From NCBI RefSeq assembly GCF_030908215.1, contig NZ_JAVFJK010000005.1, positions 1 through 64,000 on the forward strand: a stretch of 64,000 nucleotides of DNA. The letters are read 5' to 3'. This DNA comes from Sinomonas sp. ASV486 (GTDB lineage: Bacteria; Actinomycetota; Actinomycetes; Actinomycetales; Micrococcaceae). A program made the position numbers and the translations under genes. This document shows, piece by piece, positions 15,089 to 31,503 of the stretch. The notes below the pieces were generated by a model that was not told the origin of the DNA, made no database searches, and saw only the letters and a program-made list of their open reading frames with translations. Numbering within the stretch: position 1 is the first letter of the stretch; each line of letters starts with the position of its first letter.

Positions 15089-15610
15089 ATGAGCCCAGTC
15101 ATCGAGTTCGGGGGCGTGGCCCCGGACATCCATCCGAGCGCGTTCGTGGCGCCGACCGCGTCGATCATCGGCGACGCGCATCTGGCCGAGCGGTCGAGTG
15201 CCTTCTACGGCGTCTCGGTCCGCGCGGACACCGCGACGATCACCATCGGCGCCGGCAGCAACCTCCAGGACAACGTGGTCCTGCACGCGGATGCGGGCTT
15301 CCCCTGCACGGTGGGGGCTGGCGTTTCAGTTGGCCACAACGCCGTCGTGCACGGGTGCACGGTGGGGGACAACGTCCTCGTGGGCATGAGCGCGACCATC
15401 ATGAACGGAGCCGTGATCGGAGCCGAATCCCTCGTCGCGGCCGGCGCCGTCGTGCTTGAGGGGACGCAGGTGCCTCCCCGCTCCCTGGTGGCCGGGGTGC
15501 CGGCCAAGGTGCGGCGTGAACTCACGGACGACGAGGTCGCGAGCCTCTACCGCAATGCCTCGCATTACGTGGACCTCGCCCGTGCCCACCGGCAGGCCAA
15601 TCCCCGCTGA
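15089..15610 (+). CDS. Gamma-class carbonic anhydrase family protein
   Basis: 173 residues of left-handed beta-helix hexapeptide repeats (for example VAPTASIIGDAHLAERSS, VRADTATITIGAGSNLQDN). The three zinc-ligand histidines of the family are present, in VVLHAD and in VGHNAVVHGC. The C-terminal helix holds RRELTDDEVASLYRNASHYVDLA. Members trimerise and include carbonic anhydrases, PaaY thioesterases and YrdA; the sequence alone does not separate these. It starts with a -10-proximal ATG and ends 15 bases before the first unit of the 21-bp repeat element. Confidence 0.88.
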   Translation: MSPVIEFGGVAPDIHPSAFVAPTASIIGDAHLAERSSAFYGVSVRADTATITIGAGSNLQDNVVLHADAGFPCTVGAGVSVGHNAVVHGCTVGDNVLVGMSATIMNGAVIGAESLVAAGAVVLEGTQVPPRSLVAGVPAKVRRELTDDEVASLYRNASHYVDLARAHRQANPR

Positions 15611-15624
15611 CTCACCATGCCGCC

Positions 15625-15794
15625 GAGGTCACCCCGTGTGGGGCCGAGGTCACCGGGTGTGTGCGGCCGAGGTCATCGCGTGTGAGCGCGAGGTCACCCG
15701 GTGTGCGGCCGAGGTCACCGCGTGTGTGCGTGAGGTCACCCGGCGTGGGGCCGAGGTCACCGGGTGTGTGCGCGAGGTCAGGTGGTGTGCCCCC
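15625..15794. repeat. 21-bp repeat element A, left array (8 units)
   Basis: Units starting GAGGTCA lie at 15625, 15646, 15669, 15690, 15711, 15732, 15753 and 15774: spacing 21 except one of 23. The consensus is GAGGTCACCxxGTGTG followed by a variable GC-rich end; the two central bases (CC, GG, GC, CG) change from unit to unit inside CACC..GTG. GATATCGG follows at 15794-15801. Units show no spacer-like unique DNA and no associated protein. The array starts just past the stop of the gamma-carbonic anhydrase gene. Confidence 0.9.
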
Positions 15795-15934
15795 GATATC
15801 GGGTCGCGAGTGGCGCACGACGGCGACTGGTCACCTCAGGCGGCCATGGCACCGACGTGGCTATGGGCCGTCGTCCGCCCGCCCCGATGGAACAGGCGCC
15901 GGCACACGGGCTGTCCTGGACGGGGTGCCAGGCC
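15795..15934. other. Central segment of repeat element A
   Basis: About 140 bases without repeat units between the two arrays. It begins with the palindrome-like GATATCGG and contains GC-rich partial dyads. No promoter, gene or RNA was recognised. Confidence 0.6.
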
Positions 15935-16020
15935 GGGTGACTTCGGCTCCAGACGGGGTGATCTGGGTGCCACACGGGGTGACTTGGGCGCCACACGGGG
16001 TGATCTCGGCGCGAACGCCC
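15935..16020. repeat. 21-bp repeat element A, right array (4 inverted units)
   Basis: The reverse complement of the same unit, CACACGGGGTGACTT-type. GTGA cores at 15937, 15958, 15979 and 16000 are exactly 21 apart. The array abuts the stop of purU, so each of the two convergent genes runs into units of the same orientation relative to its own transcript. Confidence 0.9.
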
Positions 16021-16025
16021 AGCTG

Positions 16026-16874
16026 CTAGGGGAAGACGACCGTCCGGTGCCCGTCGAGGAGCACTCGGTGCTCGGCGTGCCACTGCACGGCGCGGCTCAG
16101 GGTGCGGCCCTCGACGTCGCGGCCCAGCTGGACGAAGTGCTCCGGAGTCCGAGAGTGATCCACCCGGATGACCTCCTGCTCGATGATGGGTCCCTCGTCC
16201 AGGTCCGCCGTGACGTAGTGCGCGGTGGCCCCGATGATCTTGACGCCGCGTGCATGCGCCTGATGGTACGGCTTGGCTCCCTTGAACGAGGGCAGGAACG
16301 AGTGGTGGATGTTGATCGCGCGGCCCTCGAGTGCCCGGCACAAATCGTCGGACAGGATCTGCATGTACCGTGCGAGCACCACGAGCTCAACCCCATGCTC
16401 CTCGACCAGGGCAAGGAGCCGCGCCTCCGCCTCGGCCTTTGTCGCTGACGTGACGGGCAGATGCACGAACGGCACCCCGTAGAACTCGGCCATCGGGGCG
16501 AGGTCCCTGTGGTTGGAGACGACCACCGGCACCTCGATGGGAAGGGTGCCCGCGCGCTGCTGGAACAGCAGGTCGTTGAGGGTACGGCCGTCCTTGGAGC
16601 ACATGATGAGGGTGCGCACCGGCTCGCCGCCGTCGAAGAGTCCGAGCCGCATCGAGAACGCCTCGGCGACTGGCGCGAGCGCAGCCTCGAGCGCGGGCCG
16701 CTCGGACTCCGTCTCGACCTCGACGCGCATGAAGAAGGTTCCCGTGTCCGGGCTCTCATACTGGCGCGACTCGGCGATGTTGCAGCCGGCCTCGAGCAGC
16801 GCGCCCGAGACGGCATACACAATGCCGGGCCGGTCAGGGCAGGAGAGGGTCACGATGAAGGTGTTCCGTTGCAC
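16026..16874 (-). CDS. purU: Formyltetrahydrofolate deformylase
   Basis: 282 residues, GTG start at 16874. Residues about 5-85 are an ACT domain (FIVTLSCPDRPGIVYAVSGALLEAGCNI). From about 90 a formyl-transferase-type domain follows: VVVSNHRDLAPMAEFYGVPF, the catalytic-type INIHHSFLPSFKGAKPYHQA and HYVTADLDEGPIIEQ. The length and domain order match PurU, which releases formate from 10-formyl-THF to supply purine synthesis and balance one-carbon pools. It lies near glyA and folD, which act on the same folate pool, although on the other strand and separated by one gene. Confidence 0.95.
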   Translation of the reverse strand: MQRNTFIVTLSCPDRPGIVYAVSGALLEAGCNIAESRQYESPDTGTFFMRVEVETESERPALEAALAPVAEAFSMRLGLFDGGEPVRTLIMCSKDGRTLNDLLFQQRAGTLPIEVPVVVSNHRDLAPMAEFYGVPFVHLPVTSATKAEAEARLLALVEEHGVELVVLARYMQILSDDLCRALEGRAINIHHSFLPSFKGAKPYHQAHARGVKIIGATAHYVTADLDEGPIIEQEVIRVDHSRTPEHFVQLGRDVEGRTLSRAVQWHAEHRVLLDGHRTVVFP

Positions 16875-20485: not shown

Positions 20486-20519
20486 ACCAAGCCGCGTTGC
20501 GGAGTCAGCTCCCTGCGAT

Positions 20520-20551
20520 GCGGGGTCATCCACCGCGGTGGATGACCCCGC
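20520..20551 (+). terminator. 32-bp perfect palindrome after folD
   Basis: gcggggtcatccaccg is followed at once by its exact complement cggtggatgaccccgc (axis between 20535 and 20536), 35 bases past the folD stop and followed by cgtttcgctt. A 16-bp stem with minimal loop should terminate transcription and could also extrude as a cruciform. Confidence 0.75.
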
Positions 20552-20577
20552 GCCCGTTTCGCTTGAGCGGGGCGCGT

Positions 20578-20645
20578 CCGGGAGTCACGTCCTGGGGGTC
20601 ACGTTCTGGAAGTCACATGACGTGACCCCCAGAAGGTGACCCCCA
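20578..20645. repeat. 14-bp-period inverted repeat element C
   Basis: On the left, units ending GTCACGTCCTG, GTCACGTTCTG and GTCACATGA are 14 bases apart. On the right, the inverted units GTGACCCCCAGAAG and GTGACCCCCAGAC follow. ctgggggtcacgt (20592-20604) pairs with acgtgacccccag (20620-20632). It lies between the convergent folD and MFS genes. The shared GTCAC core and inverted layout recall elements A and B, but the period differs. Confidence 0.65.
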
Positions 20646-20679
20646 GACGTTGTCCCTCAGTAGCTTCTGAGGCGGGCCG

Positions 20680-29657: not shown

Positions 29658-29806
29658 GAGGTCACCCCGTGTGGCGCCGAGGTCACCCGGTGTGGCGTCG
29701 AGGTCACCCGGTGTGGACCACCCCGTGTGGCGCCGAGGTCACCCGGTGTGGCGTCGAGGTCACCCGGTGGCGCCGAGGCCGGTGTGGAGTCGAGGTCACG
29801 CCGTCT
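29658..29806. repeat. 21-bp repeat element B, left array
   Basis: Units starting GAGGTCACC or close at 29658, 29679, 29700, 29735, 29756, 29775 and 29792, plus a 5'-truncated unit around 29717. Whole units are 21 apart and shortened ones 17-19. The unit is the same as in element A. It begins directly past the stop of the ABC permease. Confidence 0.9.
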
Positions 29807-29914
29807 GACAGCCCGCAGGCCAGGTACGGTGGGCGTCGCCTGCCGATCAGGTCTACCCGTGTCTTCCGCTGCTCGCGATATCGGACGTAAAGACATTGAT
29901 GCGGGGAGCAGGGG
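29807..29914. other. Central segment of repeat element B
   Basis: About 110 bases with no unit, containing GATATCGG at 29877-29884, here next to the right array. In element A the same 8-mer adjoins the left array, so B looks inverted relative to A. No gene recognised. Confidence 0.6.
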
Positions 29915-30033
29915 GCGATCTCGCTCCCACACGGGGTGACTTCGTGCCCACACGGGGTGACTTCGCGGTCCGGAGGGGTGACTTCGTGCCCACACGGGGT
30001 GACCTCGGCGGTGCAGGGGGTGATCTGGGTGGG
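29915..30033. repeat. 21-bp repeat element B, right array (6 inverted units)
   Basis: Inverted units with GTGA/GCGA cores at 29915, 29936, 29957, 29978, 29999 and 30020, all exactly 21 apart, of the form CACACGGGGTGACTTC. It ends 38 bases before the next gene start, so here the inverted half is in a 5' region. Confidence 0.9.
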
Positions 30034-30616: not shown

Positions 30617-31444
30617 GTGACTTCTCCCGAAGCGGCCCCCAAGGACGGGGCCCTGCGCATCGCGACTGTCAACGTCAACGGCCTGCGGGCCTCGTGGCGC
30701 AAGGGCATGCAGGAGTGGCTTGCGCCGCGCGGGGTCGACATTCTGTGCCTGCAGGAGGTCCGCGCCCCGGACGAGATCGTGCACGAGTACTTCGAGGGGT
30801 GGAGCGTGCTGCACGCCGAGGCCGACGCGAAGGGCCGTGCAGGGGTTGCGATCGCCTCGCGCCAAATACCCACGGCGACGCGCGTCGGTATCGGCGACGA
30901 TTACTTCGCCACGGCGGGCCGCTGGATCGAGGCGGATTTCGCGCTCGACGGCGGTCGGCAGCTCACCGTGGTCAGCGCCTATGTGCACTCCGGCGAGGCT
31001 GGGACCCCAAAGCAGGAGGACAAATACCGCTTCCTGGACGTCATGCTCAAGCGCCTACCGGAGCTCGCCGAGCACTCCGACTACGCGCTCGTCGTGGGCG
31101 ACCTGAACGTGGGCCACACCGAGCTCGACATCCGCAACTGGAAGGCCAACCAGAAGCGTGCCGGCTTCCTCCCCGAGGAGCGCGTCTACTTCGATCGGTT
31201 CTTCGGCAACGAGATCGGCTGGAAGGACGTCCACCGCGAACTCGCGGGCCCGATCGACGGACCGTACACGTGGTGGTCGCAGCGCGGCAAGGCATTCGAC
31301 AACGACGCCGGATGGCGCATCGACTACCAGATGGCGACGCCGGGCCTCGGCGCGGTGGCGCGCAACGCCGTCGTGGATCGGGCGACCGCCTGGGACACCC
31401 GATGGTCCGACCATGCCCCTCTCGTTATCGATTACAAGCTCTAG
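30617..31444 (+). CDS. xth: Exodeoxyribonuclease III (AP endonuclease)
   Basis: 275 residues, GTG start. Endonuclease/exonuclease/phosphatase fold: IATVNVNGLRASW, DILCLQEVRAP (metal-binding Glu), VVSAYVHSGEAG, VVGDLNVGHTELD (catalytic Asp and Asn), and the final WSDHAPLVIDY (active-site Asp-His). It repairs abasic sites and trims 3' ends. Its last six codons and stop are the first copy of a 20-bp tandem repeat that continues past the gene. Confidence 0.93.
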   Translation: MTSPEAAPKDGALRIATVNVNGLRASWRKGMQEWLAPRGVDILCLQEVRAPDEIVHEYFEGWSVLHAEADAKGRAGVAIASRQIPTATRVGIGDDYFATAGRWIEADFALDGGRQLTVVSAYVHSGEAGTPKQEDKYRFLDVMLKRLPELAEHSDYALVVGDLNVGHTELDIRNWKANQKRAGFLPEERVYFDRFFGNEIGWKDVHRELAGPIDGPYTWWSQRGKAFDNDAGWRIDYQMATPGLGAVARNAVVDRATAWDTRWSDHAPLVIDYKL

Positions 31445-31503
31445 ATATCGATGACAAGCTCCAGATATCGATGACAAGCTCCAGATGTCGACTACACGCT
31501 TTT
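31424..31503. repeat. Four tandem 20-bp copies starting inside the end of xth
   Basis: Copies at 31424-31443 (encoding VIDYKL and stop), 31444-31463, 31464-31483 and 31484-31503. Copies 2 and 3 are identical; 1 and 4 diverge by several bases. The repeats carry the core tATCGATgACAAGCT. Confidence 0.9.

Follow-up and report, generated by a model that had tools for sequence, protein, structure and literature searches.

Introduction

REP, BIME and REPIN elements, which are associated with a RAYT transposase, are dispersed short inverted repeats that occur as single hairpins and prefer the spacers between genes. Iterons and phased operator arrays consist of ~21-bp direct repeats, equivalent to two helical turns, whose core is better conserved than the spacer; foldback transposons such as FB and Galileo of Drosophila have inverted arms that face each other, are composed of short tandem repeats and enclose a variable centre. 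The usual account of dispersed bacterial repeats treats them as mobile hairpins or neutral debris. Rickettsia palindromic elements, as presented in PMC10969869, are palindromes of ~150 bp that are also found in frame within protein-coding genes, and the stem-loop repeat families of bacterial genomes described in PMC2267715 are repeated non-coding sequences defined by their folding.

Here we analysed a paired array at positions 15625–16020 of a 64-kb stretch of DNA (hereafter “the window”, meaning the whole stretch) from the genus Sinomonas (Micrococcaceae), together with its relatives elsewhere. The arrays resemble bacterial minisatellites or VNTRs in having tandem units that differ in number within the species (at four of four loci), but their word family recurs at 28 or more loci, in facing pairs and with a core that varies between species. 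Like REP, BIME and REPIN elements, they are dispersed, short, inverted, present in many copies and found preferentially in spacers; however, those elements are single hairpins, whereas the Sinomonas units form 21-bp tandem arrays in genomes with no Y1 transposase (15 of 15). Iterons and phased operator arrays share with them the 21-bp direct repeats and the conserved core, and differ in that the Sinomonas arrays are dispersed across the chromosome. Their in-frame presence inside genes (13 of 13 frames open) is reminiscent of the Rickettsia elements (PMC10969869), although these measure ~150 bp, in contrast to arrays of a 21-bp unit in several frames. The facing repeat arms around a variable centre are a likeness to the Drosophila foldback transposons FB and Galileo; unlike these, the Sinomonas element is bacterial, as a rule 0.1–0.6 kb long, and a candidate for mobility only. 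Compared with the foldable stem-loop families of PMC2267715, it is likewise a repeated family, but its arms do not co-vary. The initial annotation of this locus did not recognize a described class, and in agreement with this no description of the element was found in the open-licence PMC papers searched. What recurs in this family is a phased DNA word that shows a polarity between arms, is tolerated in several reading frames of essential-type genes and is swapped between species.

Results and Discussion

Anatomy of the paired array

The array lies in a convergent spacer between two genes, and the locus comprises the following features.

15089–15610, + strand, left flanking gene, gamma carbonic anhydrase family; its stop codon is 14 bp before the first unit
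15625–15789, + strand, left arm, eight units of GANRTCACCNNGTGTG plus a 5-bp linker, period 21 with one step of 23; unit starts at 15625, 15646, 15669, 15690, 15711, 15732, 15753 and 15774
15790–15928, no strand, centre between the arms
15795–15810, + strand, in-register inner unit of the putatively older type (GATATCGGG...), a GANRTCGGG unit
15813–15825, + strand, GCGCACGACGGCG, dispersed genome-wide; words akin to it are over-represented on inner arm sides
15929–16007, − strand, right arm, four inverted units, period 21; unit starts at 15929, 15950, 15971 and 15992
16026–16874, − strand, right flanking gene purU, formyltetrahydrofolate deformylase; it ends 18 bp from the right arm

The count of eight left and four inverted right units at 21-bp spacing with a single exception, as first annotated, was borne out, the exception being the 23-bp step, and the central pair of the unit core (unit positions 10–11) does vary, as noted. 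The centre of ~140 bp described as unique is not wholly so: GATATCGGG at 15795 lies exactly one period beyond the unit at 15774 and matches the units of a putatively older type at the inner ends of other arms, and GCGCACGACGGCG at 15813 is dispersed. Within the 64-kb window, GAGGTCACCNNGTGTG (≤3 mismatches) had 33 matches against 11.2 ± 3.1 expected, and none of 100 shuffles scored as high. Genomes are denoted G000 (that of the window), G058 (a second genome of the same species), G003 (Sinomonas sp. R1AF57) and G008 (S. atrocyanea DS1018); between G000 and G058 the centre of the main array is kept and the arms differ in unit number. As a separate observation, GCGCACGACGGCG has 313 copies in G000 (3 for the reversed control), 169–433 copies in G002, G003, G004, G008, G011, G012 and G013, and 23–56 copies in G001, G005, G006, G007, G009 and G010, and it was found in genes and in spacers alike (30 loci inspected).

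A dispersed family of facing, periodic arms

Searched genome-wide in G000, the 16-base word (≤2 mismatches) had 119 + 120 matches against 10 + 5 for its reversed control, and two words spaced exactly 21 bp apart occurred 91 times against 0. At least 28 array loci were registered in this genome (26 plus the 2 in the window), all 28 with two or more units. The proposal of a dispersed, periodic, inverted element with copies elsewhere in the genome and in relatives was therefore confirmed by the genome searches; the copies are many and keep the 21-bp period, being neither confined to this locus nor aperiodic. Pattern totals per genome are complete in what follows, and individual places are those among the matches listed. 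Steps inside arms were 21 bp in 342 of 369 cases, and neighbouring arms within 1.5 kb stood in the facing order (“> <”) 32 times, with one “< >” and one “< <”, after 5 of 101 arms (3 in the window, 2 in locus L095) had been left out as not of this family; before their removal the counts were 34, 2 and 1. For the consensus analysis per arm, 12 off-phase arms were also dropped and 75 arms remained. The outer edge of most arms is CGCC, which is also linker sequence, preceded by a C-rich leader, and the centre ranges from nil, where arms overlap, to about 1.2 kb. Words like GCACGACGGC occur on the inner side of 39 of 101 arms and on the outer side of 13 of 101, against a background of 187 of 1,387 stretches of 250 bp. 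Single-arm elements exist as well.

Such polarity is what a selfish paired-end element would show, its arms being repetitive inverted ends, foldback- or MITE-like, moved or copied by a putative enzyme and then drifting as minisatellites. In its favour are the head-in order (32 “> <” versus 1 “< >”, and facing order in 11 of 11 places of the ATGGGG/ATCGGG type among the matches listed), the dispersed copies in spacers and coding linkers, and an array in the purU spacer that is present in some relatives and absent in others. Yet no shared centre stood out, the 120 most enriched 9-mers being nearly all unit, linker or leader words, some pairs flank native coding domains (the E3-binding domain of E2), and partner arms resemble each other no more than arms drawn from different elements do (12 pairs). 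The TGCGGGGTCAC family, moreover, sometimes violates the polarity (1 of 8 places among those listed, and two head-out cases in G058). A Y1 (IS200-like) transposase (PF01797) was found in 0 of 15 Sinomonas genomes, with 5 of 14 control genomes positive, which argues against the selfish element and led us to reject a REPIN mobilized by a RAYT. Taken together, we consider a selfish element unlikely. Telomerase-like addition at breaks was also considered because it would yield the “> <” polarity; it is disfavoured by the native sequence in centres, which reach about 1.2 kb.

Placement relative to genes

Placement was scored for 70 elements at 61 loci from three genomes, picked by matches to GTCACC-type patterns; genes are predictions of our own codon-usage caller, which was trained on the 64-kb window and also applied to other genera. 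Convergent spacers held 26 elements, tandem spacers 20 and divergent spacers 3, and the remaining 21 fell within predicted coding sequence. The other spacers of the same loci (n = 190) comprised 22 convergent, 114 tandem and 54 divergent ones. The placement counts are not independent because the 61 loci include orthologues. Placement at gene 3′ ends, as initially suggested, fits the convergent spacer at 15625–16020 but is not general, tandem spacers and coding sequence together accounting for 41 of 70 elements. The related claim, that each half points the same way as the gene behind which it lies, holds there because the spacer is convergent, but it is no general rule. One exception is a second paired array in the window:

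29658–30027, no strand, element B, a second paired array in a tandem (+,+) spacer

The right arm of element B lies 34 bp upstream of a gene start, between two same-strand genes. Of ten single-arm elements in tandem spacers, 7 share the direction of the flanking gene and 3 oppose it (no clear bias). Among spacer arms, before the five were dropped, 56 lay behind a gene of like direction and 19 faced a gene start; the latter (one dropped arm excluded) are 34–211 bp away, with one at 1,337 bp. The constant polarity is that of arm against arm, not of arm against transcription, and polarity set by transcripts or 3′ ends is rejected, or at least weakened, by the 41 elements in tandem spacers and coding sequence. 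The arrays avoid promoters, and a 3′-end role is not needed to explain their placement.

An RNA-level 3′-end element (bidirectional terminator, processing site or protective hairpin) would fit the over-representation of convergent spacers (26 of 49 intergenic elements versus 22 of 190 other spacers), and as RNA the array folds better than its shuffles (−259.2 kcal/mol, z = −6.07). However, any inverted repeat folds well, some elements have a single arm, and of the 70 elements 21 sit in predicted coding sequence while tandem spacers hold another 20. No intrinsic terminator (a G+C-rich stem followed by a T run) was found in 15560–16080, and Rfam gave nothing above threshold at the element, the only hit being NiCo at 18.6 bits (threshold 37, E = 0.54), so that intrinsic terminators and known RNA families were set aside as candidates. 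Similarity between partner arms (0.544) was no higher than between shuffled partners (0.573; 12 pairs, a small sample), which indicates that pairing is not the conserved feature and, within that sample, speaks against hairpin pairing or inverted copying between arms as an explanation. On this evidence an RNA-level 3′-end role is very improbable.

Arrays inside coding sequence

All 10 array-bearing open reading frames tested, which cover 13 of the 21 coding elements, matched Pfam families: E2 acyltransferase, phosphopantetheinyl transferase, DUF4194 and DUF3418 helicase (each in two species), a chorismate-binding enzyme, and DsbD/thioredoxin. In the E2 acyltransferase of two species the arms occupy both linkers that flank the E3-binding domain, and the array of the DUF3418 helicase occupies the same linker in five species. 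The arrays are translated in frame (21 bp being seven codons), and 13 of 13 translated frames lack an internal stop. Depending on strand and frame, the unit peptide is AEVTPCG, TSPRGGA, GVTSAPQ or RGDLGGP; since one DNA word yields such different peptides, it is the DNA word that recurs and not the peptide. It is also worth noting that at loci L086 and L130 arrays lie near both ends of a DUF4194 gene, DUF4194 being the JetB family of the Wadjet defence system.

Unit-number change and divergence of core and linker

Unit number differed between G000 and G058 at four of four loci compared (flanks 95–99% identical), with the centre and the outermost units retained; at one of the four, about 1 kb beside the array also differed. 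Tandem units with copy-number variation within a species, as in minisatellites or VNTRs, were thus observed at each of these loci. Mismatch to the arm consensus was 0.042 at core positions 1–9 (without position 3), 0.137 at positions 10–16 and 0.184 in the linker (214 interior units from 57 arms), with the same trend in 75 arms; this conservation of the core is partly ascertained because arms were found with a matrix built on the core, and restriction to interior units reduces but does not remove the bias. Helical phasing, a conserved core and a free linker, as in operator arrays, are all present, with the same partial ascertainment from the core-based search.

Purely mutational minisatellites, produced by slippage and gene conversion with no trans-acting reader and tolerated where harmless, would account for the variation in unit number within the species, for a 21-bp unit that preserves reading frame, and for the avoidance of promoter spacers (3 of 49 intergenic elements in divergent spacers versus 54 of 190 other spacers). 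They leave the polarity unexplained, and the unequal rates at which core and linker diverge run against them, as does a core common to dispersed arrays with different linkers and changed species-wide, which is hard to obtain without recognition. We therefore regard mutation by itself as an improbable explanation.

Core words by species and signs of replacement

The core word within the same 21-bp frame is GTCACC..GTGTG, GTCACC..GTGGG or RTSGGG, depending on species. At position 15 of the arm consensus, G000 has T in 27 of its 31 arms and G003 in all 18, whereas G008 has G in 25 of 26. This tendency mostly holds at five orthologous loci, with exceptions: the helicase-gene array of G000 has G (3) or C (2) and never T, and in the phosphopantetheinyl transferase array of G008 T is as frequent as G. 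Across 15 Sinomonas genomes, the two-unit GTCACC pattern (≤2 mismatches) had 128 matches in G000, 131 in G058, 138 in G003 and 94 in G008, and 0–7 in the other 11 (reversed control, 0–6 in the 15 genomes). The two-unit RTSGGG pattern (≤1 mismatch) had 127 in G011, 121 in G010, 60 in G007 and 43 in G002, and 0–4 in the other 11 Sinomonas genomes; outside the genus, 12 of 380 genomes had 1–2 matches versus 3 of 380 for the control. A narrower ATGGGG pattern matched in G011, G002 and G007 alone. Genomes rich in one core type have little of the other, and both types are all but absent from G001, G005, G006 and G009, from which it follows that the arrays are dispensable.

The purU spacer of G011 has the same layout with an RTSGGG-type word instead, and in some relatives this spacer is array-free, though too diverged to place the element ends. 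In a purU tree, where several forks are open, two deep groups are supported; RTSGGG species fall in both and GTCACC species in one. This distribution suggests that RTSGGG may be the older type, a single gene being a weak guide. Of 96 arms, 12 have GANRTCGGG no more than 60 bp away on their inner side, in register in 10 of these, and 2 have it on their outer side, against a background of 36 of 6,515 60-mers. Outermost units also outscore innermost ones (22.0 versus 17.6; 54 versus 26 of 87 arms, P = 7 × 10−6).

DNA-level recognition as a proposed explanation

The arrays are dispersed, strictly periodic and variable in unit number within the species, their words are blind to frame and strand inside genes, and the core word is species-specific in matching 21-bp frames. 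The explanation we favour, tentatively and with less than even confidence, is that they are recognized at the DNA level by a putative trans-acting factor and grow in the manner of minisatellites. A recognition word of ~16 bp would recur every 21 bp, or two helical turns, in paired head-in tandem arrays and would be read on the DNA by that factor, most simply a DNA-binding protein that contacts one face of the helix once per two turns. The arrays would gain and lose units through replication slippage or unequal exchange, and the core word would shift genome-wide as the specificity of the factor shifts. Under recognition on the DNA, the bias to convergent spacers would arise because promoters are avoided and not from a role at 3′ ends; a bound array may organize domains, act as a roadblock to transcription, serve for titration or do no more than propagate itself. 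Copying between loci, by gene conversion or a mobility enzyme, would also give species-specific words, binding by itself gives no explanation for head-in polarity, and the 14-bp and 32-bp periods of related families are not all whole helical turns.

More doubtful still is a genus-wide reading system, in which a trans-acting factor would read facing phased arrays at dozens of sites and the word would be replaced (from RTSGGG to GTCACC and on to GTGTG or GTGGG), with new units outer and old ones inner. Comparable facing 21-bp arrays in Mumia, which belongs to a different order of Actinomycetes, hint that such a class may be broader. If a factor does read the word, a pull-down would name it at once, and species with other words would serve as ready specificity controls; if there is none, the arrays would cleanly test the extent to which gene conversion by itself can homogenize dispersed arrays in a bacterium.

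Wider distribution and related repeat families

A three-unit pattern scan of genome contigs returned 28 stretches, 22 of them from Sinomonas, with the window's own genome possibly outside the set scanned. Among 395 genomes of the family the pattern was found in 10 Sinomonas genomes and in 7 of 380 others, with 1–5 matches each and no more than for the control (7 of 380). A phage origin is disfavoured by the lack of a match to the element in the phage collection; two viral contigs matched the three-unit pattern with period-21 arrays. At five further non-Sinomonas loci, the stretch inspected contains period-21 arrays but no partner facing them. In Mumia sp. zg.B17 (Nocardioidaceae; L051, 6513–6797), a predicted convergent spacer is filled by a pair of facing 21-bp arrays that have GCGGGTCAC as their core and immediately follow a stop codon and a C/T-rich leader. 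A spacer of Geomonas oryzae (L050, 4375–4716) holds 16 copies of a 21-bp unit containing GTCACC and CACGTG; IS21-type ends were considered for this locus and rejected, as the L050 open reading frames listed suggest, by eye, no transposase.

Other repeat families accompany the arrays in Sinomonas. A 21-bp family with TGCGGNGTCAC has 280 matches in G011, 105 in G058, 92 in G000, 20 in G012 and ≤6 elsewhere, and its arms face each other in 7 of 8 places among the matches listed, with two G058 loci in reversed order. Families with 14-bp and 32-bp periods are also present, and one spacer of the window has related but different paired words:

20486–20679, no strand, convergent spacer after folD, with TGCGGRGTCA units and 14-bp GGGGTCACGTTCTG units

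In G007, the orthologous purU spacer (L143, 1–560) carries 32-bp units built on a GGGTCACSTCCCGYGGGT core and arranged as arrays that face each other. A 32-bp array with GTTTCGGGTACGGATCTCG was seen at L185 (1423–1601), with an inverted copy past a hairpin beside GCGCACGACGGCG. Finally, positions 31426–31491 of the window hold a 20-bp tandem repeat, TATCGATGACAAGCTCCAGA, in 3.3 copies, which is present in G058 too.
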